A stretch of DNA of 64,000 nt from Limnobacter thiooxidans. GTDB lineage: Bacteria; Pseudomonadota; Gammaproteobacteria; Burkholderiales; Burkholderiaceae_B. Both the position numbers and the translations under genes were made by a program. The stretch lies in NCBI RefSeq assembly GCF_036323495.1, contig NZ_AP028947.1:2790001-2854000 (forward strand), given 5' to 3'. Positions 2 through 59,711 of this stretch are shown in pieces. Position 1 is the stretch's first letter; the number at the start of each line of letters is the position of its first letter. The notes below the pieces were generated by a model. The model made no database searches, was not told the DNA's origin, and saw only the letters and a list, made by a program, of their open reading frames with translations.

Positions 2-637
2 CAGGTTGAACTGCTCAGCGATGAAACCGACGAAACCGCCAGGCTGCGCAGCCTGCGCCGCTTGAAGGTGGGCACGGAACGCTCCACGCGCCTGGTCAAC
101 CAGTTGCTTGCCTTGGCGAGAACCGAAGCCCCTTCCGTGCTGCAATTCGAGAAACTGGACCTGACCCACGTTGCGAGGTCGGTCACCCGCGATTTCGTAC
201 CCGAGGCCATGAACAAGCGCATTGACCTGGGCGTCGAGGTACCCGATCACCCGGTGTATGTGACAGGCCAAACCCTGATGCTGACCGAAATGCTGAAGAA
301 CCTGGTGGAGAACGCCTTGCGGTATACGCCCAACGAGGGCTGTGTCACGGTTCGGGTCGACGACAGCCCTCAACGCGAAGCCATTCTGCTGGAAGTGGAA
401 GACGATGGGCCCGGCATACCGCCTAGCGAACGCAACCTGGTGTTTGACCGCTTTTACCGCGTACTGGGCACCAGTGAAGACGGCTCAGGCCTGGGCCTGG
501 CCATTGTTCAGGAAACTGCTCATCAGCACGACGCGCACGTCAGCATTCACGACAATCCGAAGTCTCTGCACGCAGATCGACCCGGCACCGTGATGCGTGT
601 CAGTTTCCCACCCCGCCACCGGCAGATGGAAGATTGA
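2..637 (+). CDS. Sensor histidine kinase, C-terminal part (5'-truncated)
   Basis: The frame is open from the window edge, so only the last 211 residues are present. They hold the end of the dimerisation/phosphoacceptor helices (RLVNQLLALARTEA) and a complete HATPase domain: N box LKNLVENALRYTP, G1 box DDGPGIP, F box FDRFYR and G2 box GSGLGLAIV. The style is that of TctE/QseC-type membrane kinases that phosphorylate an OmpR-type regulator; that partner would lie upstream, outside the window. The phosphoacceptor histidine is not in view. The downstream phoH gene starts 39 bases later. Family assignment is secure; the stimulus is unknown. Confidence 0.9.
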   Translation, partial: QVELLSDETDETARLRSLRRLKVGTERSTRLVNQLLALARTEAPSVLQFEKLDLTHVARSVTRDFVPEAMNKRIDLGVEVPDHPVYVTGQTLMLTEMLKNLVENALRYTPNEGCVTVRVDDSPQREAILLEVEDDGPGIPPSERNLVFDRFYRVLGTSEDGSGLGLAIVQETAHQHDAHVSIHDNPKSLHADRPGTVMRVSFPPRHRQMED

Positions 638-45965: not shown

Positions 45966-47324
45966 ATGCCTCACCCAAAAACCCTGCTGCTGTTCAATTA
46001 TGACTGGGACGAACTGGGTGCAAAGCGCCTGAAAGACAACTGGCCGAGCCTTGAATCCGGTTTCGATCTGTTCAGTTTCCCCAGCAACGCTCGCCTGGCC
46101 TGGTTCGATACCGAACGATTTGTCGCCAAGGCCGCGGTGTTCGCACGTTTAACGGGCGCAAAGGCTGTTACATCCAACCACGAACAGTTCGGTGCCCTGT
46201 GCGCAGCCTTGCTCGCGGAAAAAATGGGCTGGCCGGGTACCCCGGTCAAAGCCATTCTGGCCTGCCAGCACAAACTGTATGCGCGCCAGATATTGCAACA
46301 GGTCGCACCCGAAGCAAACCCAACTTTCTCCAGGCTTGATGCAGCCTATGGCGGCCCGGTGCCAAACCACATCCAATACCCGCAATTTGTTAAACCCGTG
46401 AAAGCCGCATTTTCAGTGTTGTCGCGTGTGGTGAATAACCAGCAGGAATTGCATGAACACACTCGGTTTGGTGCTTGGGAACTGTGGGTGATCAAACACC
46501 TTGTAGAACCTTTTGAACGAATTGCAAGAAAGCGCCTGCCTGAAGCAGGCACCGCACACAGCATGCTGCTGGAAGCGCCGGTCACGGGTCGGCAATACAA
46601 CCTGGACGGCTATGTTTGGAAAGGGCAAGTGCGTGCTCTCGGGGTGGTGGACGAGGTGATGTACCCTGACACCGATGCGTTCATGCGCTTCGAATACCCA
46701 AGCCAACTTCGCACCACGGTACAAGCCCGTGCAGCCGACGTGGCCCGGCGTTTCTTGAACGCTGTCGGGTTTGACCATGGTTTGTTCAACATGGAGTTTT
46801 TCCATGATGAAGCCCGCGACAAAATCACCGTGATTGAATTCAACCCGCGCATGGCCTCGCAGTTTTCCGATTTGTACCTGCGGGTTGACGGGATCGATCT
46901 GCATGAAATTGCATTTGCATTGGCACACGGCATTGATCCGGCCACACTGAACCGTGCGCCAACCACCGCCGGCAGTGCAGCCAGTTTTGTGTACCGTTCA
47001 TTCGACCCCAAGGCTCAGGTCGCATTTCCAACAACCGCGCAAAAAAACAGCTTCAGGGAATCCTTTCCCGACGCCCTGTTTTTCGAATACATCAAAGACT
47101 CCAAAGAACTGCAACGCGACTTCAAATGGTTGCGCAGTTACCGGTACGGCATCGTGCACCTGGGCGGCGACAACACGCAGCACCTTCGCCAGCGCTGCGA
47201 ACAGGCCAGTGCCATGCTGGGCTGGACTGCGCCTTATTTGGACGCGCCGCCAGACCGTGCGCCTGAAACCCACACCACCAAACCGGAACTGTTTCTGTCA
47301 AAGCCGGTCAGTACATCCACTTGA
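45966..47324 (+). CDS. ATP-grasp domain protein
   Basis: A 452-residue cytoplasmic protein with an ATP-grasp layout: an N-terminal pre-ATP fold, then KLYARQILQQV, the ATP-binding strand YPQFVKPVKAAFSVLSRVV and the metal-binding segment FNMEFFHD...ITVIEFNPRMASQF near residues 280-300. ATP-grasp enzymes form acyl-phosphate intermediates to ligate carboxylates with amines or thiols. The C-terminal 130 residues have no known domain. It begins 16 bases after the DUF547 gene. Substrate unknown. Confidence 0.85.
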   Translation: MPHPKTLLLFNYDWDELGAKRLKDNWPSLESGFDLFSFPSNARLAWFDTERFVAKAAVFARLTGAKAVTSNHEQFGALCAALLAEKMGWPGTPVKAILACQHKLYARQILQQVAPEANPTFSRLDAAYGGPVPNHIQYPQFVKPVKAAFSVLSRVVNNQQELHEHTRFGAWELWVIKHLVEPFERIARKRLPEAGTAHSMLLEAPVTGRQYNLDGYVWKGQVRALGVVDEVMYPDTDAFMRFEYPSQLRTTVQARAADVARRFLNAVGFDHGLFNMEFFHDEARDKITVIEFNPRMASQFSDLYLRVDGIDLHEIAFALAHGIDPATLNRAPTTAGSAASFVYRSFDPKAQVAFPTTAQKNSFRESFPDALFFEYIKDSKELQRDFKWLRSYRYGIVHLGGDNTQHLRQRCEQASAMLGWTAPYLDAPPDRAPETHTTKPELFLSKPVSTST

Positions 47325-47350
47325 ATGACAGAACAACCTGGAGATGAATT

Positions 47351-47950
47351 TTGAAAATGACACGCACACACAAGCTGCTTTTTGCAGCCAGCCTGATACT
47401 AAGCCTTGGTGCCTGTTCGTCCATGAGCGCACAAAACCCGGCCAACGAATTAAGCCCCGTGAATGCAGCCCAAGCTGAAGGTGCAGACCGAGTCATGCTG
47501 TTTGGCGCTGACGTGGTGGCCTATTTCACAACAAACGCCTATGTTCAGGGATCTGCGAAATTCAGCAGCACCTACAAGGACGTTGATTTTCACTTTTCAA
47601 GCGCCGAGAACAAGGCCTTGTTTGACCAATCCCCCGAACAATACCTGCCCCAGTACGGCGGCTATTGCGCCAATGGCATCATGTTTGGTATTCCTTGGGG
47701 CGGCAACGCAACTGACTTCAAAATGGTGAACGGCAAGCTGTATATTTTCGGAGGCCAAGTGTCACAGGCCGCTTTCGAGCTTGAGCTGGACAAGAACATC
47801 GCCCTGGCCGACCAGTACTGGGAACAGGAAATCAAGGGCAACAACAGCTTTATCCAGCGGGCCAAACGACTTGTTTTGCGGGTTCCCCATTACAAAACCG
47901 GAGAAGAACAGGCCGCACAAGTGAAAGCGGCTCAGAAACCCGGCGTTTAA
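47351..47950 (+). CDS. YHS-domain lipoprotein
   Basis: A 199-residue protein with a lipobox LSLGAC at about residues 19-24, so it is probably membrane-anchored after lipidation. The YHS-like domain (about 40-120) has DVVAYFTTNAYVQGS, FSSAENKALFDQSPEQYLPQYGGYC; the Cys could bind metal. GGAG lies 7 bases before the TTG used here; an ATG two codons later has worse spacing. It follows the ATP-grasp gene after 26 bases. Confidence 0.8.
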   Translation: MKMTRTHKLLFAASLILSLGACSSMSAQNPANELSPVNAAQAEGADRVMLFGADVVAYFTTNAYVQGSAKFSSTYKDVDFHFSSAENKALFDQSPEQYLPQYGGYCANGIMFGIPWGGNATDFKMVNGKLYIFGGQVSQAAFELELDKNIALADQYWEQEIKGNNSFIQRAKRLVLRVPHYKTGEEQAAQVKAAQKPGV

Positions 47951-48050: not shown

Positions 48051-48926
48051 ATGAAAAATTCAGCCCTTTCAATTTCACGCCGACTGTTCTCAGTCGCAGC
48101 AATCGCCCTTGCAGTGGGTTTCTCCATGTCTGCACACGCCGAACAGGTATTGAAAGTCACCACCATTCCCGAAGAAGCCGCAACCGAGCAGATTCGCAAG
48201 TTCGAGCCTTTGGCCAATTACCTGTCCAAAGCGGTTGGCATGAAAGTGGAATTCACCCCGGTTAGCGACTACCCCGCAGCGGTGGAAGCATTGGTCAACA
48301 AGAAAGTCGACCTGGTCTGGTTCGGTGGTTTCACACACGTACAGGCATCACTGCGTTCCGGCGGAAAGGTCATTCCAATTGCCCAGCGTGTTGAAGACAC
48401 CAAGTTCCAGTCTGTGTTCATCGCCAAAACCGATTCAGGTATCAAAAGCCTTCAGGACATGAAGGGCAAACAAATTTCCTTTGGCTCACAAAGCAGCACT
48501 TCTGGCCACTTGATGCCACGCAGCTTCCTGCTGGAAGCAGGCCTGGAACCTGAAAAGGCATTCAAGCGCGTGGCCTATTCCGGTGCACATGATGCAACCA
48601 TTGCATCTGTAGTCAGCGGCAAGGTGGATGCAGCAGCACTGGACATTACTGTGTGGAAAAAGTTTGTAGCTGAAAATAAGGTTGATACCAAGGCCGTAGA
48701 CGTTTTCTACACCACACCGCCCTATTACAACTACAACTGGACCGTTCACCAGGACATGCCAGCAGACCTGCGCAAGAAAATCCAGAAAGCGCTGTTTGAC
48801 CTGGACCCTGCAGTACCAGAGCATGCAGAAATCCTGAAGCTGAACCGCGCAACCCGTTACATCGACACCAAGCCCGAGAACTACAAAGGTTTGGAAAGCG
48901 CCGCACGTAGCGCCGGCTTGCTATAA
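48051..48926 (+). CDS. PhnD-type ABC transporter substrate-binding protein, possibly selenium oxyanion
   Basis: A 291-residue precursor with a clear signal peptide ending SAHAEQ. The mature part matches PhnD-like phosphonate/phosphite binding proteins: TTIPEEAATEQIRKFEPLAN, VSDYPAAVEALVNKKVDLVWFGG, SFGSQSSTSGHLMPR. The family includes a branch annotated as putative selenate binding protein. The selenium gene pair at 55.7-59 kb and the egtD at the end of this same transporter run favour that branch here, but the ligand is inferred from context. GAGG lies 5 bases before the ATG. Confidence 0.85.
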   Translation: MKNSALSISRRLFSVAAIALAVGFSMSAHAEQVLKVTTIPEEAATEQIRKFEPLANYLSKAVGMKVEFTPVSDYPAAVEALVNKKVDLVWFGGFTHVQASLRSGGKVIPIAQRVEDTKFQSVFIAKTDSGIKSLQDMKGKQISFGSQSSTSGHLMPRSFLLEAGLEPEKAFKRVAYSGAHDATIASVVSGKVDAAALDITVWKKFVAENKVDTKAVDVFYTTPPYYNYNWTVHQDMPADLRKKIQKALFDLDPAVPEHAEILKLNRATRYIDTKPENYKGLESAARSAGLL

Positions 48927-48981
48927 TCCAGCGGTTGGGGGGCCAGTCGGCCTCCCACTGTTTCAAAGGGAAGGTTGCGCA

Positions 48982-49824
48982 GTGAAGCTTCAAATTCAGG
49001 ACATCAACGCCTGCCATCCCTCTGCACCGCCCGGCAGCGCACCTGCCATCAAGGGCATGAGCCTGCAAATCAACAGCGGCGAACAAATCGCTCTGATCGG
49101 CCCCTCTGGTGCCGGCAAAACCACGCTGCTTCAAGTGCTGTCTTGCACATTGAAACCCCAACAGGGCCTGGTTTCGCTGAACGAACAAAACCCTTGGCAG
49201 TTGAGTAAACGTCAACTGCAGAAACTTCGCGGTCAACTGATTGTTGCCCCTCAAGTGCCGCCCTTGCCTCCCCGTCAACGGGTTATTACTTCGGTATTGG
49301 CTGGACGATTGCCCGCGATGAGCCTGCTTCAAAGCCTGAAATCACTTTTTTATCCAGTGGACATTCCTGCCGCCCACATGGCGCTCAGCAAACTGGATTT
49401 ACCCGAAAAAATCTTTGAACGGGTTGATCGGCTTTCAGGCGGTGAACGCCAGCGCGTCGGCCTGGCCCGCCTGTTCGTGTCACCAGCCAAACTGTGGTTG
49501 GTGGATGAACCACTTTCCGCACTCGACCCCACACGCGCGCGCCTGGCCATGTCGGCGCTCACCGATTCCGCGCAGGAAAAAGGAATTTCACTAATTTGCA
49601 CCTTGCACCAGGTGGACATGGCGCTGGCCTTTTTCAAGCGCATCATCGGTCTGCGCGACGGGAAAATTGTGTTTGATTTGCCCACAGAACAAGTCACCCC
49701 GGCCATGCTGAAATCGCTGTATGCCCAGTACGAACATGAATTGCTGGGTCAGCCCGACCGTGAACTGATTGAAAAGCAATTCGAGCGTACAACGCCCACA
49801 GTGGTGGTCAACAATTGTCGATGA
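48982..49824 (+). CDS. ABC transporter ATPase, PhnC-like (GTG start)
   Basis: A 280-residue ATPase. Walker A is GPSGAGKTT, the signature LSGGERQRVGLARL and Walker B LWLVDEPLSALDP. It powers import together with the two permeases downstream. AAGG lies 7 bases before the GTG. The stop overlaps the first permease start by four bases. Confidence 0.93.
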   Translation: MKLQIQDINACHPSAPPGSAPAIKGMSLQINSGEQIALIGPSGAGKTTLLQVLSCTLKPQQGLVSLNEQNPWQLSKRQLQKLRGQLIVAPQVPPLPPRQRVITSVLAGRLPAMSLLQSLKSLFYPVDIPAAHMALSKLDLPEKIFERVDRLSGGERQRVGLARLFVSPAKLWLVDEPLSALDPTRARLAMSALTDSAQEKGISLICTLHQVDMALAFFKRIIGLRDGKIVFDLPTEQVTPAMLKSLYAQYEHELLGQPDRELIEKQFERTTPTVVVNNCR

Positions 49825-50669
49825 GCAGCCTGCCAGTACACAACCCCCGGTTCGATGTACCTTTGCGCGACCCGGCTTGGCACCAGCGCCTGTTCTGGAT
49901 GATATTCGCTTTGCTGTTGCTGTGGCCTCTGACAGAAGCCACTGAGTTCCGGCCATCGGTGTTGTTCGAGCCAGAAAACATGAAAATCACAGCCAACTTC
50001 ATTGGCAGCTTTTTCCCGCCCGTTCTGGAACCCGACCTGCTGGCCCGCATTCTTCGAGAAACCTGGAAAACCGTGGCCATCGCCACAGCCGGCATGGTGC
50101 TGGCTTTGTTGATCGCTTTTCCGCTGACCATCATTTCGACCCGCGTGTTGTCCGTGTCGGCCATTTCAGGGCGAATGGCTGCGCTGCCATTTGTCGTGCG
50201 CCAAATAGTCCGCTGGACACTCATTGTTCTGCGAAGCATTCCCGAACTGGTGTGGGCCCTGGTGTTTGTTCGTGTGGTCGGTTTGGGCCCTACGGCAGGG
50301 GTATTGGCCATTGCGCTGACCTATGGTGGCATGCTGGGCAAGGTGTACGGTGAAATTCTGGAAAGCGGCGAAACCACAGCCACTGAAACCTTGTTGCGCA
50401 ATGGTGGCAGCCGCCTGCAGGCTTTCTTTTATGGCCTGCTGCCACAAAATGTGATGGAGTTGACCTCGTACACTGTGTATCGCTGGGAATGCGCCATTCG
50501 TTCATCCGTGGTTCTCGGCTTCGTGGGTGCAGGCGGCTTGGGTCAGGAACTCGACAACTCCATGAAAATGTTCAATGGTGGCGAAGTGGCCACCATGTTG
50601 ATGGTATTCATTCTGCTGGTGGCTCTGGCCGATGCAGTCAGTGCGTTTTTCAGGAATCGCCTGATATGA
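49821..50669 (+). CDS. ABC transporter permease 1, PhnE-like
   Basis: A 282-residue inner-membrane protein with about six helices. The EAA-type loop is visible as NGGSRLQAFFYGLLPQNVME, preceded by LRSIPELVWALVFVRVVGLGP and followed by RWECAIRSSVVLGFVGAGGLG, as in PhnE permeases. Its start overlaps the ATPase stop and its end overlaps the second permease, so the three are translationally coupled. Confidence 0.92.
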   Translation: MSSLPVHNPRFDVPLRDPAWHQRLFWMIFALLLLWPLTEATEFRPSVLFEPENMKITANFIGSFFPPVLEPDLLARILRETWKTVAIATAGMVLALLIAFPLTIISTRVLSVSAISGRMAALPFVVRQIVRWTLIVLRSIPELVWALVFVRVVGLGPTAGVLAIALTYGGMLGKVYGEILESGETTATETLLRNGGSRLQAFFYGLLPQNVMELTSYTVYRWECAIRSSVVLGFVGAGGLGQELDNSMKMFNGGEVATMLMVFILLVALADAVSAFFRNRLI

Positions 50670-51499
50670 GCATTCAAACAGCTGTCTCCAACCGGGCACC
50701 CGACTGCCCAGCCAAGGCGCCCCCCGTGATGAAGGGTGGTACGGCCGCCCTGTTGCTCGGCATGTTGATGCTGGTGTTTGCCAGTTTCTGGACCTTGAAT
50801 CTGAAATGGGGAGAATTTCTTTCGCTTGAGGCCTTTGCATCCATGGGACGCTTTCTGGGAGAGTTTTTCCCGATGGATACCCAGGTTGCATTTTTGAAAC
50901 GCGTCGGTTGGGGCACCCTTGAAACCCTTGCCATGTCACTCTTGGGTACCGCACTGGCGGCACTCGCCGGGCTGGCCCTGGCCATTCCCGCCAGCAAATT
51001 GCACAGCAACGACAAAAGTACCCTGCGCACCCCCACCCGTTGGGTGCTCAATGCCCTGCGCTCGATCCCCGAGCTTGTGTGGGCAGCGCTGCTGCTTATT
51101 TCAGCCGGGCTTGGGCCTTTCGCGGGTACGCTGGCATTGGCCTTTCACACCACTGGTGTACTGGGCAGGCTGTTTGCAGAATCGATCGAGAATGCGCCAC
51201 CCGAACCTGCAGATGCCTTGCGCGCGCAGGGAACAGGTAACCTGATGGTGTTCTATTTCACCACCTTGCCGCAGGTGCTACCGCAATTGATGAGCTACAC
51301 CCTTTACCGCTGGGAAAACAACATCCGCGCCGCCGCTGTGCTGGGCGTGGTGGGTGCAGGCGGCCTCGGGCAGCTGCTGTCGTTTCACATGGGTTTGTTC
51401 CAGATGGGCAAAACCGCCACCATTCTGGCAGCCATGTTATTGCTGGTTGCCCTTGTTGACAGCCTGAGCTATCACCTGCGCCGCAAGATGACCCGCTAA
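50666..51499 (+). CDS. ABC transporter permease 2, PhnE-like
   Basis: A 277-residue permease paralogous to the previous one, with LRSIPELVWAALLLISAGLGP, the EAA-type loop ALRAQGTGNLMVFYFTTLPQ and RWENNIRAAAVLGVVGAGGLG. The two would form a heterodimeric channel. The start overlaps the upstream stop as ATGA; a longer in-frame extension lies inside the first permease. egtD follows after 24 bases. Confidence 0.92.
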   Translation: MSIQTAVSNRAPDCPAKAPPVMKGGTAALLLGMLMLVFASFWTLNLKWGEFLSLEAFASMGRFLGEFFPMDTQVAFLKRVGWGTLETLAMSLLGTALAALAGLALAIPASKLHSNDKSTLRTPTRWVLNALRSIPELVWAALLLISAGLGPFAGTLALAFHTTGVLGRLFAESIENAPPEPADALRAQGTGNLMVFYFTTLPQVLPQLMSYTLYRWENNIRAAAVLGVVGAGGLGQLLSFHMGLFQMGKTATILAAMLLLVALVDSLSYHLRRKMTR

Positions 51500-51523
51500 G
51501 CGACCAACAAGACATTTGAAGTC

Positions 51524-52495
51524 ATGACCACCACACCGCAATTTATCCAGATTTATCAGGCGCAGGCCGAACACATTCGTGAAGAATTGCTCAGCGGACT
51601 GCGTGCCACCAAGGCGTACGCTTCCCCGAAATATCTGTACAACGAGCTGGGCTCAAAACTGTTTGAGGCCATTACCTGCATTCCTGAGTACTATCCCACC
51701 CGCACTGAAGCCAGAATATTCGACGAACATGCGCACGACATGGCAAAACTGCTGCCGCACGGGTGCGTGCTGATTGATCTGGGCGCAGGCAATTGCGAGA
51801 AGGCTGTTCGCCTGTTTCCGGTATTTCAGCCAGCCCGATATGTCGCGGTTGACATCTCGGTGGACTTTTTGAAAGTGGCGCTGGAACGCTGGCAGCGCCA
51901 GTTTCCAACTCTGGAAATGACCGGTGTCGGCATGGACTTTTCCAGCCAATTGATATTGCCCGCAGACCTGGCCTTGAAGCCAACACAGGCCAGGGTCATG
52001 TTCTATCCCGGGTCCAGTATTGGCAACTTCACCCCCGAAGAAGCCTTGCTGTTTCTAAAACAGGTGCAATCGGCTTGTTCCGTTGTTGACGGGGGTGGCT
52101 TGCTGATTGGTGTAGATCTGGTGAAAAGCAAAGGGGTACTGGAAGCGGCTTACGACGATGCACTGGGCATCACTGCAGCTTTCAACCGCAACATGCTGCT
52201 GCATTTCAACACACTGGCTGGCACCAACTTCAAGCTGGAAGACTGGAAACACATCGGCCTTTACAACACCGAGCTGAACCGGATCGAGATGCACCTGGAA
52301 GCACTTCGGGATTTGACCGTGACCTGGGAAGGTGGGGAACGTCACTTTACAGAAGGTGAACGTATTCACACCGAAAATTCCTACAAATGGACCCTAAAAG
52401 GATTTGAGGAATTGTTGAAACAGGCCGGGTTTTCAGCTTGCAAGGCTTACACGGATACGGAGCAAAAGTTTGCGGTGTTTTGGGCGAAGGCTTGA
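51524..52495 (+). CDS. egtD: L-histidine N-alpha-methyltransferase EgtD
   Basis: A 323-residue SAM-dependent enzyme that trimethylates histidine to hercynine. Diagnostic stretches are ASPKYLYNELGSKLFEAIT, PEYYPTRTEARI, the SAM-binding LIDLGAGNCEKA, and FYPGSSIGNFTP. Hercynine is the backbone for ergothioneine (via EgtB) and selenoneine (via SenA). Neither of those iron enzymes is encoded in this window. The gene directly follows the PhnE-like permeases, an unusual link between a binding-protein transporter and hercynine formation. Confidence 0.94.
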   Translation: MTTTPQFIQIYQAQAEHIREELLSGLRATKAYASPKYLYNELGSKLFEAITCIPEYYPTRTEARIFDEHAHDMAKLLPHGCVLIDLGAGNCEKAVRLFPVFQPARYVAVDISVDFLKVALERWQRQFPTLEMTGVGMDFSSQLILPADLALKPTQARVMFYPGSSIGNFTPEEALLFLKQVQSACSVVDGGGLLIGVDLVKSKGVLEAAYDDALGITAAFNRNMLLHFNTLAGTNFKLEDWKHIGLYNTELNRIEMHLEALRDLTVTWEGGERHFTEGERIHTENSYKWTLKGFEELLKQAGFSACKAYTDTEQKFAVFWAKA

Positions 52496-52540
52496 GGTTA
52501 CGATTGCTTTGGTTGTTCGCCAACTTGGCGCTGCCTGCCT

Positions 52541-52685
52541 GTTCTGCACTGAAAACCGCGTAATCCCTTTTTGCATTCATCCTGACTCACCGAACTCGGC
52601 AAGAAAGATGGCCGAATTCGGTGTCGGCCAAAGGCCGAACGCTGCGGCTGAATTCAAACGGGGCGGTTTTCTTCAAGTGCAGAAC
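52541..52685. repeat. Structured intergenic repeat, copy A
   Basis: Terminal arms GTTCTGCACTGAAAACCGC (52541-52559) and GCGGTTTTC-TTCA-AGTGCAGAAC pair over 19 bases with one 4-base bulge. Inside are a hairpin CACCGAACTCGGC / GCCGAATTCGGTG (about 52588-52623) and a small one CGGCC-aaa-GGCCG. It lies between convergent 3' ends. Flanking CGCCAA/TTGGCG-type hairpins occur on both sides. Confidence 0.8.
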
Positions 52686-52724
52686 TGCCAAACTCGCCGC
52701 CAAGCTGGCGGAAAAAGCACCGCC

Positions 52725-53339
52725 TCAGTTTTGCGGGAGCATCGTTTCCGCGGCGGGCACCTCAGACCACTTTCGGCAAGGCCATTTCCAATAACCAGGA
52801 GCTCCCCACCAAATTGCCTCAATGGTGACCGGGTTATTTGAGCGAATGTGCACCTCATCAATTACGCTTCCCTCTGGATAAAAATATCTCTTCTTGTCAG
52901 GATGATTGGCGAAACCAAGCGAGGCAAACGTTTCGCCTTTCACTGTTGGCGATCCGGTGAAGGAATACACCAAATCTATCCAGCCTAGTTTGTTGTTGTG
53001 AACTCTTACGTCGAAAAGCAGCACCTTACCCGTCTGCTTGTTTCGGGGAAGCCACCGGTTCCAGGATTCGGGATGCTCGTCCTTATTAGTCAAGTCCACA
53101 AAATCAAAATCAGCCCGTTTCAAAAGCATATGGACATAGTAAATAGACGGGGAGACATTAAATGGCCTGGTGAGTTTGAGCTGTTTCCATTCGGGACCCA
53201 CTTGAATTGGACCGGCAATCTCGGCATCTTGGGGTGACTGGGTTCGTAACCAACACAATGGGTCTGCCATTGCCAAAGCTGGCCCCAAAAACAGTATAAG
53301 TAGCGCTGCAATACGTGGCCAGGAACAACTTACCCTCAT
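52725..53339 (-). CDS. Exported protein of unknown function
   Basis: A 204-residue precursor with a signal peptide (IAALLILFLGPALAMAD). The mature part is strand-rich with many Trp residues (ESWNRWLPRNKQTGKVLLFD, IEAIWWGAPGYWKWP) and no recognised domain. Its start overlaps the stop of the upstream papain-like gene (ATGA), so the two form a pair. The pair lies between copies A and C of the structured repeat, which are in opposite orientation. Confidence 0.7.
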   Translation of the reverse strand: MRVSCSWPRIAALLILFLGPALAMADPLCWLRTQSPQDAEIAGPIQVGPEWKQLKLTRPFNVSPSIYYVHMLLKRADFDFVDLTNKDEHPESWNRWLPRNKQTGKVLLFDVRVHNNKLGWIDLVYSFTGSPTVKGETFASLGFANHPDKKRYFYPEGSVIDEVHIRSNNPVTIEAIWWGAPGYWKWPCRKWSEVPAAETMLPQN

Positions 53340-53887
53340 GACTTAAGCGCCTTCACGAACTTGAGCGACTCACTTTTTACCAAACCGCCGGGACTGACTG
53401 CGTGAGCTGGATATTTAGTAACAAACAAGCCTGCCATTTCAAAAGCACGAACAATCAATTCACTGCAATAAAACTGACTGTCGTGAGCCGACTGATCCTT
53501 TAAAACCTCGTCTGCCACCTCAATCAGTACCGTAGCAGGCAACAAGCGCTTTACATTTGAACAACCCGAACTGATTGCTGACCGAACAGCCCCACGGAAA
53601 TCATATGGCTTGCCCTCGTATCTAATGATCGAATTACAAACCTTATCTGCATAAAAATGGGTTATGCCTCGATAACGGAACAGGTCCACTTTGGTTGCAC
53701 CATTTAATACTTCTGACAAGGCAACGCGAGCAACGCCAAATTGCGGCGTTGCCTCTATACAGAAACTATTGTTCAAAACCAAAATGGCGTGACTATAGGA
53801 AGCACACGTCACACCCTGAATACCTCTGGATTGCAAATTACCGGAATTGGTAACAATAATGTCGGCGGCTTGAATGGATGAAAGCAT
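53336..53887 (-). CDS. Permuted papain-like (YiiX/NlpC-P60-type) protein
   Basis: A 183-residue protein without a signal peptide. The order of motifs resembles circularly permuted NlpC/P60 or YiiX-like proteins: DIIVTNSG at the start, His in YSHAILVLN, the strand KVDLFRYRG, GKPYDFRGAV, and Cys in FYCSELIVRAFEMAG followed by SPGGLVKS. Such enzymes act on amide or ester bonds; a Cys-His pair is present but order and pairing need a model. Base composition looks lower in GC than its neighbours. Confidence 0.65.
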   Translation of the reverse strand: MLSSIQAADIIVTNSGNLQSRGIQGVTCASYSHAILVLNNSFCIEATPQFGVARVALSEVLNGATKVDLFRYRGITHFYADKVCNSIIRYEGKPYDFRGAVRSAISSGCSNVKRLLPATVLIEVADEVLKDQSAHDSQFYCSELIVRAFEMAGLFVTKYPAHAVSPGGLVKSESLKFVKALKS

Positions 53888-54382
53888 GTTGGGCTGGCGA
53901 AAAGAAAAGTTGAGGAGGCGACCGTAGCATATTGACCAGCAGGGGGAAAAATACTTAAACCCATGTGATGGATGTTATCCCCCGCCAAAAAAAGCCAGAA
54001 AACCATATGACTACCAGCGCTCTAGGGGCTCTTGCCGCACGCCTTGCCGTGAATACGTCACGCTAGGGATTCAAGCAACAGGCTGAGGAATTAGTCCTCT
54101 TGAAATTGCCCTGCGACAGTGCTCTAAAGGTACAAACGACCATGTACTGCTGCCACTTTGCACGAGTTCTGTCCCAATCAGCAGCGATGTTTCAATCGCT
54201 TCGCCTTCAAGAAAATCTGCCCGTTTGAATTCACACGCCACGTCCGGCGTTCAGCCGACACCGGGTTCGGCCATCTCTTTTGCCGAACCTCGGTGAGTCA
54301 GTGTGAATTTCAAACAGGGATCAACAGATTTTCAGGCGAGGGATTGGAATTCGCGCTGATTGGAACAGAACCCGATGACAGC
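53888..54382. other. Intergenic region holding repeat copy C
   Basis: About 495 bases. The left 300 bases hold the upstream region of the papain-like gene and no clear ORF; the short plus-strand ORFs there have no ribosome-binding site. The structured repeat occupies the part nearest the methyltransferase gene. Confidence 0.5.
54201..54339. repeat. Structured intergenic repeat, copy C (reverse orientation)
   Basis: Read on the minus strand it aligns along its whole length with copy A. Terminal arms are TCGCCT-GAAAATCTG and CAGATTTTC-TTGA-AGGCGA. The inner hairpin is CACCGAGGTTCGGC / GCCGAACCCGGTG, and the small one CGGC-tgaac-GCCG. Arm bases differ from copy A yet still pair. Confidence 0.78.
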
Positions 54383-55576
54383 TCAAGCAGCCGCAAGCCG
54401 CCACAAGCTGGTCATTTCCTTGCACCGTGCGTCAAACAGGCCATCGGTGTTGTCAAACGCCTTGCCGTGTTTGGGCTTGGCATCTAGACGACCTGCCACT
54501 TTCAAACCGGCGGCTTCAATCCAGCCCAGCAATTCTTCACGCGTGCGCAAATTCAAGTGCTCAGCCAGGTCTGACAAAATCAACCAACCTTCGCCACCCG
54601 CATTCAGGTGGGCCGCCAAGCCGGCCAGAAACGCTTTCAGCATGCCGCTGTTTTCATCGTAAATGGCGCGCTCGATTGGCGACGTTGGCTTGCCCGGCAA
54701 CCAGGGTGGATTGCACACAACCAGATCGGCCTTGCTTTCGGGAAACAGATCCGCTTCAAGCACCTTGATCTGTTTGCCCATGCCCAGGTTTTGAATATTG
54801 AATCGGGCGCATTCGAGTGCACGAGGGTCGTTGTCGGTGGCCACAATATTGCTCAACCAGCGCTGGGCCAACACTGCTGCCAATACGCCTGTGCCTGTAC
54901 CCACATCCACTGCAGAACCATTCACTTCGCAGGCTTTTGGCAATGGCGCCTTCAGCACCAGGTCAACATACTCGCCACGCACTGGCGAAAACACGCCGTA
55001 GTAAGGGTGAATGCGGTTGCTGGGTGGATCGCCCAAGGCAGACACTTCCACCCCTTTCTTGCGCCATTCATAGGCACCAACAACACCCATCATTTCGCGC
55101 AGGGAAGTCACAATCATCGGGCCATCGGCTTGCGGCTCACCCCAGGCTTCAGTGCAGGCTGCCAACACATCAGGTGCACGGCGCAAGGGGATGCTGTAAT
55201 CGGCATTGAACGGAATCAGGATTGAACCCAGAATTCGGGCACGCTGGGCCTGGGCCTGGCGATACAAGTGAAACTTCTGGGGATAAGCCACATCGGCCTT
55301 GCCTGATTTGGCGGCTTTCTCGCGCTTGTGTTCCGCATTTTTATCCACCCGGCGCACCAGGGCCTGCATCAACTGGCGGGCATTCTGAAAATCGCTTTGC
55401 CACAACAGGGCGGTGCCCTCGCAGGCCATGCGATAAGCCATGTCCGCAGTCAACGTGTCGTCCGCCAAAACAACTTTGCCCGGCACAGCCAAATGCCGCT
55501 CGGAAACCCAACGTGCATTGAATGTTTCATCACCCTTGGACCATTGGATTACAGGGGTTTCATTGGCTGCTTGCAT
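54383..55576 (-). CDS. Class I SAM-dependent methyltransferase (NPPW type)
   Basis: About 397 residues. The C-terminal half has SAM motif I AVDVGTGTGVLAAVLAQRW, the acidic loop VATDNDPRALECARFN and catalytic DLVVCNPPWLPG. The NPPW motif marks N-methyltransferases acting on glutamine, adenine or guanine, such as HemK/RsmC relatives. The N-terminal 190 residues lack a known domain. It is divergent from the SenB-like gene. A role in selenium metabolism is not implied by sequence. The chosen ATG drops 33 poorly conserved residues; its ribosome-binding site is weak. Confidence 0.8.
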   Translation of the reverse strand: MQAANETPVIQWSKGDETFNARWVSERHLAVPGKVVLADDTLTADMAYRMACEGTALLWQSDFQNARQLMQALVRRVDKNAEHKREKAAKSGKADVAYPQKFHLYRQAQAQRARILGSILIPFNADYSIPLRRAPDVLAACTEAWGEPQADGPMIVTSLREMMGVVGAYEWRKKGVEVSALGDPPSNRIHPYYGVFSPVRGEYVDLVLKAPLPKACEVNGSAVDVGTGTGVLAAVLAQRWLSNIVATDNDPRALECARFNIQNLGMGKQIKVLEADLFPESKADLVVCNPPWLPGKPTSPIERAIYDENSGMLKAFLAGLAAHLNAGGEGWLILSDLAEHLNLRTREELLGWIEAAGLKVAGRLDAKPKHGKAFDNTDGLFDARCKEMTSLWRLAAA

Positions 55577-55692
55577 GCGTATTCTCGTGGTGATGGGCGG
55601 GTGGGATCGTGTAAACTGCTCTGGACTCGCAGTGTACCACCTCGGTGGCCTGCACCCTGAGACCTCCTGTTTCACATAGAGCGACTGTTGTC

Positions 55693-56742
55693 TTGAGCAA
55701 ACCCCGCATTGCCATTGTCAGCCCTGCCCTTGCTGACGCCAACAACGGCAACTGGCAAACTGCCCGTCGCTGGCAGCTGTTTATGTCTGAACATTTTGAT
55801 GTCCGTGTTGTAAAAACCTGGGAAGACTCAGATCAAACACAACAAGACGTCGCGCTGATTGCACTGCATGCACGCAGGTCCGCAGACTCGGTTCAGGCCT
55901 GGGCAACAAGTCGTGGATTGGCCGCAGGATCAAGTCCTGGCTTGATCGTGGCACTGACAGGCACCGACCTGTACCGTGATATTGAAACCGACAAAGCAGC
56001 ACAGGATTCGCTTGAACTGGCCCAACACCTGATTGTGTTGCAAGAAAAGGGCGTCGAGAAGCTGGGTGAAAAGCTGCAAAGCAAAACCTCGGTGATTTTT
56101 CAGTCCACCACTTCACGCAAAACCCTGGCAAAACCCAAACGCAGATTGAAAGTGGTGATGGTGGGGCACCTGCGAGATGAAAAAATGCCCCAAACCCTGA
56201 TGGAAGTGGCCGTGTTACTGCGCGGCTATGGCGACATTTACATCGATCACATTGGCGGCCCGCTCGACCCGGAACTGGCACAGGCTGCCCAGGACACCAT
56301 GCAGGTGTGCCCCAACTACCGATGGCTGGGCAATCTGCCCCACGGTACAACCCGCACTCGAATCCAGCGCGCACACGTGCTGGTGCATGCCAGCAAGATG
56401 GAAGGTGGCGCACATGTCATCATGGAAGCCGTGTGCAGTGGCACACCCGTGGTGGCCAGTTTCATTGACGGCAACATCGGAATGCTGGGCACAAACTATC
56501 CCGGCTACTTCCCCATGGGTAATTCCCATGCGTTGGCCAACATGCTGACTCAATTGCAGGAAGACATCGTCAACCCAAAACCCCTGCCACCGGGAAAGTC
56601 CAGCCTGTATACCAAACTGAACAACCAGTGTGCCGAACGTGCAAAACTATTCGCACCGGAAAACGAACAAAACCAGTTAATTCGACTCGTACAACGGGCC
56701 ATTCAATACAACACAGTAGCAACAAGCCATGCAAACATCTGA
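55693..56742 (+). CDS. senB: SenB-like glycosyltransferase (probable selenosugar synthase)
   Basis: About 349 residues from a TTG (MSKPRIAIVSPAL). A GT-B glycosyltransferase: an N-terminal fold starting IAIVSPALADANNGNWQTA, and a C-terminal donor site with VMVGHLRDEKMPQTLM, SKMEGGAHVIMEAV and SGTPVVAS. These features and the tight coupling to selD match the family (annotated TIGR04348) that includes SenB, which makes a selenosugar from selenophosphate and a UDP-sugar in selenoneine biosynthesis. It overlaps the SelD-fusion gene by 14 bases. The start is uncertain: a GTG 16 codons earlier is in frame. Confidence 0.8.
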   Translation: MSKPRIAIVSPALADANNGNWQTARRWQLFMSEHFDVRVVKTWEDSDQTQQDVALIALHARRSADSVQAWATSRGLAAGSSPGLIVALTGTDLYRDIETDKAAQDSLELAQHLIVLQEKGVEKLGEKLQSKTSVIFQSTTSRKTLAKPKRRLKVVMVGHLRDEKMPQTLMEVAVLLRGYGDIYIDHIGGPLDPELAQAAQDTMQVCPNYRWLGNLPHGTTRTRIQRAHVLVHASKMEGGAHVIMEAVCSGTPVVASFIDGNIGMLGTNYPGYFPMGNSHALANMLTQLQEDIVNPKPLPPGKSSLYTKLNNQCAERAKLFAPENEQNQLIRLVQRAIQYNTVATSHANI

Positions 56743-59014
56743 ACAACCCATTCTTCGTGACATCGTGCTGGTCGGCGGCGGTCACAGCCACGTGGGGGTA
56801 CTGCGCATGTTTGGCATGAAGCCTTGGCCTGGTGTTCGGCTGACCCTGATCTGCACCGACATTCACACCCCCTATTCCGGCATGCTGCCTGGCTACATTG
56901 CCGGGCACTACAGCTACGACGATGTGCACATCGACTTGGGGAGACTCTGTGCTTTTGCGGGCGCCCGTTTGTTCAAGGACGAAGTGGTTGGCATTGACCG
57001 GGCCAATCAGAAAGTGATTTGCAAGAACCGACCACCCGTGGCGTACGACGCGCTTTCGATCAACATTGGCAGCACACCCCAGGTGCAGTTAGTGCCCGGC
57101 GCACTGGAACATGCAGTGCCCGTCAAACCCATTGCAAAATTCAACCAGCGTTGGCTGAATTTGCTGGACCGTGTGAAAACCCACGCAGGCAAAACCACCA
57201 TTGCAGTGGTGGGCGGCGGCGCAGGTGGCGTTGAACTGCTGCTGGCCATGCAGTTTCGCTTGCGCAATGAACTGAAAACCATGGGTCGAAATCCCGATGA
57301 ACTGGAGTTTCACCTGTTCACCGCGGACGCCGATGTACTGCCTACCCACAACCCCGGTGTGCGGGCACGGTTTGAAAAAGTGCTGAATGCACGTGGCGTT
57401 GTGCTTCACCGCGACGCTGAAGTGGTGCAACTGGATGGCCACACGCTGCAAACCCGGCAAGGCGAACGTTTGCACGCCGATGAAATCATGTGGGTGACGC
57501 AAGCCGGTGGCGCAGCCTGGTTGAAAAACACCGACCTGGAACTGGACAACCGTGGTTTTGTGAATGTGGGCCCCACCCTGCAAACCAGCCGCGACCCGAA
57601 AATTTTTGCAGCTGGCGACATTGCCAATCTGACCAGCACACCGCTTGAAAAGGCGGGCGTGTTTGCCGTGCGGATGAGCAAACCCCTGGCCAAAAACCTG
57701 CACCTGTTTGTTCAAGGTGCTGCGCTGAAGGAATACCACCCACAGAAAACATGGCTGGCCCTGATCAGTACAGGTGACCAGTATGCGGTGGCCTCGAAGG
57801 GCTTGCTGGGCTTTGCAGGGGCCTGGGTGTGGCAGTGGAAAGACTGGATTGACCGCCGCTTCATGGCGAAATTCAGTGAATTCCCCGAGATGGATCCGAA
57901 TGCGAAACCTGCCGGTGGGAATACACCCAACCTTGCACTCACCCAGGAAGAAAGCCTGCAAGCCATCTCCGCCATTGCCATGCGCTGTGGCGGTTGCGGA
58001 GCCAAGGTGGGTTCCACGGTGTTGTCTCGCGCCTTGGGCAACCTCAAGCCCGTGGACCGCGCCGATGTGCTGGTGGGCTTGCATGCACCCGATGACGCTG
58101 CCATTGTCAAAGTGCCCCCCGGCAAGGCCATGGTGCACACCGTCGATTTTTTCCGTGCCTTTGTAGACGACCCCTACGTGTTTGGAAAGGTAGCAGCCAA
58201 CCACGCACTGGGCGACGTGTTTGCCATGGGTGGTGAGGCGCAATCGGCCACCGCCGTGGTGACCGTGCCGCCCGGGCTGGAATCGAAAGTGGAAGAACTG
58301 CTATTCCAGATGATGAGCGGCGCAGTGGAAGTATTGAACGAAGCCGGTTGCGCCTTGGTGGGTGGCCACACCGGAGAAGGTCGAGAACTTGCACTGGGTT
58401 TTGCAATCAATGGCCTGGTCGATGAAAACCTCAACGGTGTCATGATCAAGGGTGGCATGCGTCCCGGCGATGTCATTTTGCTGACCAAACCGATTGGCAC
58501 TGGAACCCTGTTTGCCGCGCTGCCCCAACTGAAAACCAAGGGCCGCTGGATCGACGCAGCCCTGGAATCGATGGTGAAAAGCAACCGCCTGGGTGCACAG
58601 TGCCTGCGTGAACATGGCTCCAAAGCCTGCACCGACCTGACCGGCTTTGGCTTGCTGGGCCACCTGGTGGAAATGACAAGGCCTTCGGAAGTGGATGCAG
58701 AACTGGACCTGAGCGCCCTGCCCTTGCTGGACGGCGCGCTTGACATGGTGAATGCAGGTATTGTGAGTTCGCTACAACCAGCCAACGTGCGCTTGCGCCG
58801 CGCCATTCGCAACCAGGCTGAGTACGCGAACGACCCGCGCTACCCCTTGATATTCGATCCTCAAACTGCGGGTGGATTATTGGCCACCGTGCCAGGCGAT
58901 CAAGCCGAAGCCTGCGTGGCCGCCTTGAAAAAACTGGGCTATGAGCACACCGCGATCATTGGCCGGATTTTGCCGCAAGGTGATGCGCTTGAACCCATCG
59001 TATTGAAAGGCTGA
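56729..59014 (+). CDS. selD: FAD-dependent oxidoreductase/selenophosphate synthase fusion
   Basis: A 761-residue two-enzyme protein. The N-terminal part (1-about 375) is an NDH-2-like pyridine nucleotide-disulfide oxidoreductase: LVGGGHSHVGVLRMF for FAD, VVGGGAGGVELLLAM for NAD(P)H, and FAAGDIANL. The C-terminal part (about 400-761) is selenide, water dikinase with catalytic Cys423 and Lys426 in RCGGCGAKVGS, and HTVDFFRAFVDDPY. The active-site residue is Cys, not selenocysteine. It makes selenophosphate, here probably for SenB; it might equally serve tRNA selenation or selenocysteine. No selA/selB/selU is in view. In the senABC system this role is SenC. Confidence 0.92.
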   Translation: MQTSEQPILRDIVLVGGGHSHVGVLRMFGMKPWPGVRLTLICTDIHTPYSGMLPGYIAGHYSYDDVHIDLGRLCAFAGARLFKDEVVGIDRANQKVICKNRPPVAYDALSINIGSTPQVQLVPGALEHAVPVKPIAKFNQRWLNLLDRVKTHAGKTTIAVVGGGAGGVELLLAMQFRLRNELKTMGRNPDELEFHLFTADADVLPTHNPGVRARFEKVLNARGVVLHRDAEVVQLDGHTLQTRQGERLHADEIMWVTQAGGAAWLKNTDLELDNRGFVNVGPTLQTSRDPKIFAAGDIANLTSTPLEKAGVFAVRMSKPLAKNLHLFVQGAALKEYHPQKTWLALISTGDQYAVASKGLLGFAGAWVWQWKDWIDRRFMAKFSEFPEMDPNAKPAGGNTPNLALTQEESLQAISAIAMRCGGCGAKVGSTVLSRALGNLKPVDRADVLVGLHAPDDAAIVKVPPGKAMVHTVDFFRAFVDDPYVFGKVAANHALGDVFAMGGEAQSATAVVTVPPGLESKVEELLFQMMSGAVEVLNEAGCALVGGHTGEGRELALGFAINGLVDENLNGVMIKGGMRPGDVILLTKPIGTGTLFAALPQLKTKGRWIDAALESMVKSNRLGAQCLREHGSKACTDLTGFGLLGHLVEMTRPSEVDAELDLSALPLLDGALDMVNAGIVSSLQPANVRLRRAIRNQAEYANDPRYPLIFDPQTAGGLLATVPGDQAEACVAALKKLGYEHTAIIGRILPQGDALEPIVLKG

Positions 59015-59021
59015 ACACAGC

Positions 59022-59711
59022 ATGCCAGTCACTTTGCTGAAACACTGGAAAAAAAGCGCGCTGCTGCTTGTGGCCGCGCTTTTTCTCTGGGTGTGGCTCA
59101 GCATGGATGTGTCACTTCAAGACATGCTGATGGCCCAGCGCGAGTTGGCCATGCACTTCATGGAACACCCCACACTGGTCACCCTGATTTACTTCAGCCT
59201 GTTCGTGGTCATTACTGCCCTTTGCCTGCCCGGCGCTGGTGTACTGATGCTGGTGGGCGGCGGTTGCATGGGCTTTGGGCTGTGTATTGTGGTGTCCACT
59301 GCTGCCTCAGCCTTGGGCGCATTGCTGACTTTTCTGGCCGCACGCTTTCTTTTCCGTGAATCAGTTGAGCAGCGCTTCGCAGCGAAACTGCTGGAAATCA
59401 ATCGGGGCATCGAAAAGAATGAGGTGGTCTACCTGCTGAGTTTGAGGCTGGCACCCATCATTCCATTTGTGGCCTTCAACCTGCTGGCCGGGCTGACACG
59501 GGTGAAGCCCTGGACCTTTTTGTGGACCAGCTTTCTGGGCATGCTGCCCGGTACTGTGCTGTATGTGAATGCAGGTCATGAACTGTCGAAAGTCAGCCAG
59601 TTGGGCGAACTGATTTCCACTGAGGTGGTGGTGTCATTGACCGCACTGGCGCTGGTACCGTTTCTGATTCAGTGGGCAGCGAAGCAAATTCAACAGCGCA
59701 AGACTGCTTAG
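59022..59711 (+). CDS. TVP38/TMEM64-family membrane protein
   Basis: A 229-residue inner-membrane protein with about five helices. The family core is present: ALCLPGAGVLMLVGGGCMGF, SLRLAPIIPFVAFNLLAGLT and TFLWTSFLGMLPGTVLYVNAG. It belongs to the VTT/DedA-related group of probable lipid or ion transporters. It starts 7 bases after the SelD-fusion stop, so it is co-transcribed with the selenium genes. A selenium-related transport role is a context-based guess. Confidence 0.88.
   Translation: MPVTLLKHWKKSALLLVAALFLWVWLSMDVSLQDMLMAQRELAMHFMEHPTLVTLIYFSLFVVITALCLPGAGVLMLVGGGCMGFGLCIVVSTAASALGALLTFLAARFLFRESVEQRFAAKLLEINRGIEKNEVVYLLSLRLAPIIPFVAFNLLAGLTRVKPWTFLWTSFLGMLPGTVLYVNAGHELSKVSQLGELISTEVVVSLTALALVPFLIQWAAKQIQQRKTA

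Follow-up and report, generated by a model that had tools for sequence, protein, structure and literature searches.

A probable selenium hub gene cluster with its senA unlinked in a Limnobacter genome

The locus described here appears equipped to make a selenosugar, which raises the question of what that sugar is used for. A sequence-only reading of the window (the whole 64-kb stretch of DNA that was analysed, C1:2790001-2854000 in contig coordinates) had recognized a PhnD-type importer, EgtD, a SenB-like glycosyltransferase overlapping a SelD fusion and a TVP38 protein within 12 kb, and no DinB/FGE-type SenA or EgtB in the window. It left two explanations, that SenA lies elsewhere or that the selenosugar has another fate, and suggested searching the genome for SenA and EgtB homologues and for selA and mnmH. 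We analysed the Limnobacter genome concerned (G000), a single contig of 3,536,915 bases that is 99.4 per cent complete. Every gene named in that reading was recovered in the span 48051-59711 of the window, both ends of which coincide exactly with open reading frames (ORFs). Rfam matches in the 64-kb window were limited to one tRNA at 2273-2345. The features of the span, in window coordinates, are as follows.

48051..48926, plus strand: PhnD-type substrate-binding protein of a putative selenium importer (TIGR04553, 359.8 bits, cut-off 250)
48982..49824, plus strand: importer ATPase (PF00005, 97.6 bits; best NCBIfam match PhnC, 200.6, below its cut-off of 266.1)
49815..50669, plus strand: importer permease 1, PhnE-like (TIGR01097, 204.6, just under the cut-off of 216.7)
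50666..51499, plus strand: importer permease 2, PhnE-like (TIGR01097, 253, cut-off 216.7)
51524..52495, plus strand: EgtD, histidine methyltransferase predicted to form hercynine (TIGR03438, 352.4, cut-off 290.9)
52725..53887, minus strand: two small ORFs, one with no Pfam match and one YiiX-like (PF05708)
54383..55675, minus strand: class I methyltransferase (PF05175, 55.5), occupying the place of senA in relatives
55693..56742, plus strand: SenB, predicted selenosugar synthase (TIGR04348, 448.3, cut-off 300)
56729..59014, plus strand: oxidoreductase-SelD (SenC-type) fusion, predicted selenophosphate synthase (TIGR03169, 527.2, cut-off 310; TIGR00476, 289.2, cut-off 125)
59022..59711, plus strand: TVP38/DedA-superfamily membrane protein (PF09335, VTT domain, 84.4, cut-off 33.9)

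The egtD start lies 24 bases past the last permease, the SenB and SelD ORFs share 14 bases, and the TVP38 gene opens 7 bases after the SelD stop. For permease 2, whose ORF opens at 50489, the start was placed at an ATGA that overlaps the end of permease 1, and 55693 is by our reading the probable start of SenB within an ORF of 55645-56742.

Gene identities, orthology and copy numbers can be read directly from the genome. The glycosyltransferase scores 371 bits against the solved RsSenB and groups with solved SenB enzymes in a tree of 56 chosen rows, so it does not fall outside the SenB clade. All fourteen checked active-site positions (N20/T23/E231, the EGGAHV motif, the SeP pocket residues and K158, as given in excerpts of PMC10891094) are identical to those of Variovorax paradoxus SenB, and D86 is kept too. 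By homology it is a true SenB, and selenosugar synthesis is its predicted activity. The SelD part of the fusion, besides exceeding the TIGR00476 cut-off, has the Cys/Lys active-site motif GCGAK at residue 422. The genome has a single over-cut-off match for each of EgtD, SelD and SenB, all inside the window; each must therefore serve all of its users. For MnmH, too, a single match exceeds the cut-off, and for SelA none does.

The TVP38 gene stands beside SenB in all seven Limnobacter loci, and in 22 of 80 loci in a wider SenB survey (the best 80 of 550 confirmed SenB loci). In Cupriavidus metallidurans, a member of the DedA family is reported to have been linked to selenite uptake (PMC8679861), and a role for the TVP38-type protein in selenium uptake would fit that report.

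An FGE-family search agreed that the window encodes neither SenA nor EgtB: it gave no match there, and all seven matches in the genome (five proteins) fall outside C1:2790001-2854000. One of these proteins is a SenA orthologue of 393 residues at C1:127116-128297 (coordinates computed from the L110 stretch, with the start estimated by us inside a longer frame). It scores 446.5 bits against NF041186 (cut-off 420), a model that cannot separate SenA from OvsA, so the assignment rests on the tree and on solved relatives. Its best solved relative is SenA 8ryz (344.5 bits, against 146.9 for OvsA). In a 62-row tree of a chosen subset, it lies within the clade of solved SenA (support 99/94), joining the SenA of Limnobacter B02.bin.52 at 100/100 and then that of G034 at 98/88. 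The HX3HXE iron motif known from EgtB-type enzymes is present as HEQMHNE at residue 164. This orthologue rules out loss of SenA from the genome. Measured along the contig, 2.71 Mb separate it from the cluster; on a circular contig the distance would be 0.81 Mb. Thus senB and selD are linked, and senA is not. As judged from homology, all sen pathway genes are encoded in this genome but the cluster is split. Of the two explanations first offered, an SenA elsewhere is borne out for this genome, and another fate of the selenosugar is not.

Downstream of the relocated senA, at a distance of about 4.5 kb, L110:12787-14934 encodes a 715-residue fusion of a TVP38 (VTT) domain and a disulphide oxidoreductase. 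Similar matches occur near senA in L116, L119 and L122; in Limnohabitans a related family is found near SenB.

The senABC selenoneine pathway of V. paradoxus (PMC9814287, PMC10891094) has counterparts here for SenB, SelD/SenC and SenA, and the two systems share the placement of egtD beside senB. The Limnobacter system differs in its unlinked senA, in the oxidoreductase domain fused to SelD, in the importer and TVP38 gene flanking the cluster and in the additional presence of OvsA.

Gene order in relatives bears on how the cluster came to be split. In L123 (G034, from the same genus) the importer (minus strand), egtD (plus), senA (minus), senB (plus) and selD (plus) stand in one row. The order egtD-senA-senB with senA divergent is also found, in either orientation, in L098, L099, L125, L128 and L129; selD follows senB in L098, L099, L123, L128 and L129, and none is shown in the L125 stretch. 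Limnobacter B02.bin.52 (L181), like G034, keeps senA directly beside senB, with egtD 11 kb off. In our genome and in G066, G090 (probably the same genome as L136/G124) and G112, a minus-strand methyltransferase gene is in the senA place and senA lies elsewhere, the unlinked SenAs of the latter three being 73-77 per cent identical to ours. Compared with those three, our genome alone adds the two small ORFs, which were not seen there in L114, L117, L120 or L123. Because senA is beside senB in two relatives and the methyltransferase takes its place here, the ancestors of this Limnobacter branch most likely had an egtD-senA-senB-selD cluster that senA later left. In the SenB tree of 56 chosen rows the deep branches have poor resolution and the Limnobacter SenBs do not form one clade, so a partial exchange of the cluster or of senB is possible instead of a simple movement of senA. 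A separate arrangement was seen at L127:6148-10731 (G111), where a divergent SenA-like gene with a long tree branch is next to a divergent SenB (34.7 per cent), the SelD fusion is in the opposite orientation and the EgtD match is only a fragment.

The methyltransferase in the senA place could itself point to a fate other than selenoneine: the selenosugar might, for example, be modified by this adjacent class I enzyme, the distant SenA being irrelevant. Its gene lies between egtD and senB in our genome and in G066, G090 and G112, and it adjoins SenB in six of the best 80 of 550 loci. All six are of what we call the Limnobacter type, the loci whose SenBs are closest to that of the window (81-86 per cent identity) among those 80; they come from Limnobacter alexandrii, L. 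parvus, Limnobacter sp. CACIAM 66H1 and three MAGs whose titles give only Burkholderiales or Gammaproteobacteria. However, every genome named with this arrangement carries both SenA and OvsA, and outside Limnobacter the methyltransferase does not stand beside SenB in any of the 33 full-flank loci among the best 80 of 550. The protein, moreover, only weakly resembles HemK/PrmC-type enzymes, with none of its 19 NCBIfam hits over cut-off. We also considered it as an OvsM-type enzyme and rejected this, TIGR04345 not being among those hits. A fate of this kind is very unlikely in our genome, and use of the selenosugar by the unlinked SenA remains our reading. Other fates may exist elsewhere, since eight of the best 80 of 550 SenB loci belong to assemblies with no recognized user of the selenosugar.

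These eight emerged from the same survey: of the best 80 of 550 SenB loci, 57 have SenA within the stretch and 23 do not. When the 23 and L181 were searched genome-wide, SenA was found elsewhere for the six Limnobacter-type loci and for nine others, although in some assemblies 'elsewhere' may reflect only contig ends, and one SenA is in broken frames. In eight assemblies from the best 80 of 550 (loci L152, L169, L170, L176 and L183, from Limnohabitans, and L159, L199 and L201) no SenA, OvsA, EgtB or EgtD was found. The SenA profile, which also picks up OvsA and EgtB (323 bits for the EgtB of our genome), gave partial matches of 36-69 bits in six of the eight and nothing in two, and EgtD was found in none of the eight; positive controls run alongside gave SenA in 5/5 (four over cut-off) and EgtD in 5/5. 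Several of these assemblies are drafts or MAGs, so absence is not proof. All eight orphan SenBs keep the fourteen checked active-site residues, and SelD is in the stretch of seven, the exception being L159. Upstream of senB, L152, L176 and L183 share one gene family, whose L176 member matches PF04143 (sulphur transport, YeeE/YedE-type). The idea of another selenosugar fate thus fits these genomes and not ours, and SenB lineages whose product has no known user would, if real, imply a third use of the selenosugar.

A second user is predicted in our genome as well. In the described ovoselenol pathway OvsA acts on histidine with a selenosugar, and the OvsA/OvsM route leads to ovoselenol. The second NF041186 match, at C1:2312147-2313436 (421 bits, cut-off 420), was considered as a second SenA and rejected: it scores 544 bits at 55 per cent identity against the solved OvsA 8u41, compared with 193 bits at 39 per cent against SenA, and in the 62-row tree it is inside the clade of solved OvsA (support 97/99). 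The gene next to it encodes a TIGR04345 methyltransferase of the OvoA-C-terminal type (288 bits, cut-off 170), the pair spanning C1:2312147-2314192. Such a methyltransferase is beside OvsA in ten of twelve OvsA stretches (L121 and L218 are probably one genome, and the SenA-like protein of L127 was left out of these counts); it was not found after OvsA in L101 or in the nearest relative, L214, where 1.5 kb downstream was covered. From homology and position, we predict that OvsA and this methyltransferase form an ovoselenol pair using the same selenosugar. With respect to the described ovoselenol pathway (OvsA, PDB 8u41 and 8ux5), the OvsA orthologue and its adjoining methyltransferase are shared, but the Limnobacter OvsA has neither SenB nor SelD beside it and would depend on the hub in the window, 0.5 Mb away. 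Matches to SenB, SelD, EgtD or the binding protein are likewise absent from all twelve OvsA stretches, which cover 4-15 kb each.

SenA and OvsA occur together in all five same-genus genomes (ours included) of a 121-genome family sample, and in the six Limnobacter-type genomes among the best 80 of 550 that have no senA at the senB locus. Full-length OvsA matches (72-90 per cent identity) were confined to those six among the 50 of the best 80 of 550 loci that were searched. In the family sample OvsA is also present in G051, outside the genus. No OvsA was found in L181, a Limnobacter with SenA, so not every member of the genus carries both. Several Limnobacter OvsA proteins are named 'selenoneine synthase SenA' by NCBI (L112:7148-8437; P0008, P0014-P0016, P0020 and P0022); an automatic 'SenA' label can therefore mean OvsA.

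The sulphur counterparts are encoded too, unlinked to the window. EgtB, at C1:2351129-2352445 (512 bits, cut-off 360), has an EgtE-like gene beside it that reaches only 162 against a cut-off of 400; OvoA, at C1:2283274-2285427, has 717 residues and both domains (702 against 400 and 336 against 170). The ergothioneine (EgtB/EgtD) and ovothiol (OvoA) pathways are thus both represented, and EgtB would share the EgtD of the window. With EgtB and MnmH both encoded elsewhere in the genome, egtD could in principle serve ergothioneine only, leaving SenB-SelD as a remnant or for tRNA selenouridine. Yet a SenA orthologue is present, SenB is complete with a conserved active site, and the other four genomes of the genus, all of which keep egtD beside or near senB, have no EgtB-scale match listed. 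(An OvoA-scale match also occurs in G090; among the five, only our genome has EgtB-scale and OvoA-scale matches together.) An ergothioneine-only role is extremely improbable, and the selenoneine-type reading stands, with EgtB sharing EgtD and not replacing SenA.

The supply of selenium to the cluster is the other part of the question. The importer set is complete, comprising a binding protein, an ATPase and two permeases, and its TIGR04553 binding protein is linked to the selenium genes. In make-up it matches the PhnCDE-type phosphonate/phosphite importers, and the nearest solved relatives of the binding protein are named phosphonate or phosphite binding proteins. It may thus take up phosphite or phosphonate, or carry another oxyanion, its position beside selenium genes being incidental; three of the twelve family-sample genomes with the binding protein over cut-off (G083, G105 and G086) have no SenB over cut-off and no selenium gene recognized by eye nearby. 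Unlike those importers, however, the binding protein passes the selenium-linked model TIGR04553 and fails the PhnD model (186.3, cut-off 261.1), and it is linked to SenB loci. Of the best 80 of 550 SenB loci, 46 have it within the stretch, among them 22 of the 33 full-flank non-Limnobacter loci. In the family sample of 121 genomes, SenB and the binding protein each occur in twelve and together in nine (hypergeometric P, with kinship uncorrected, 4e-9 when counted by genome and 0.003 by genus). In favour of the phosphite or phosphonate reading, the two are not neighbours in four of the nine (G012, G051, G060 and G108). The TIGR04553 name was presumably itself assigned from such neighbourhoods, so a match to it is not independent evidence. 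We regard phosphite or phosphonate uptake as unlikely, though a serious alternative, and from homology and linkage we infer a selenium oxyanion as the ligand.

Two further observations concern the importer and its surroundings. In L133, L134, L136 and L138 the binding protein is 93-97 per cent identical to that of the window, whereas L135 and L137, the other two Limnobacter-type loci, have an inverted importer with only about 60 per cent identity to that of the window, which looks like an exchange of the transporter cassette. Upstream of the importer, two ORFs at window positions 45966-47950 are ATP-grasp-type and YHS-type (by eye only) and recur in 15 and 11, respectively, of the best 80 of 550 SenB stretches.

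According to a passage of a 2026 review (PMC13188914), a dedicated high-affinity bacterial selenium importer has not yet been identified. The phrase 'selenate ABC transporter' occurs in PMC13077682 and PMC9426549. In the open-licence PMC literature, which cannot show that a claim is unpublished, we found no report of PhnD-type selenite uptake or of selenoneine in Limnobacter, and none by title of OvsA as a selenium enzyme.

Taken together, the locus very probably serves as a common selenium hub for a selenometabolite system whose genes are dispersed. The substrates and products of the following scheme are predicted from homology and linkage. The PhnD-type transporter would bring in a selenium oxyanion, which would be reduced and then converted to selenophosphate by the oxidoreductase-SelD fusion. 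SenB would move this selenium onto a UDP-sugar, giving the selenosugar, and EgtD would supply hercynine. The unlinked SenA would join the two into selenoneine, and OvsA with its methyltransferase would use the same selenosugar and histidine for ovoselenol. The same SelD would also supply MnmH, and the same EgtD would supply EgtB. More tentatively, and somewhat short of what we would call probable, the selenosugar may be a branching currency (spent by SenA, by OvsA and, in the orphan lineages, in a third way) and the TIGR04553 system a dedicated high-affinity selenium importer, both holding jointly.

For genome interpretation, a gene cluster that lacks one partner does not by itself imply that the pathway is absent. 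The locus also offers a concrete candidate for a bacterial selenium importer. This Limnobacter is predicted to make both described selenium derivatives of histidine, together with their sulphur twins, from a single EgtD, SelD and SenB, and with these genes shared, single deletions in one strain could test both how the selenosugar is shared and what advantage selenium has over sulphur.
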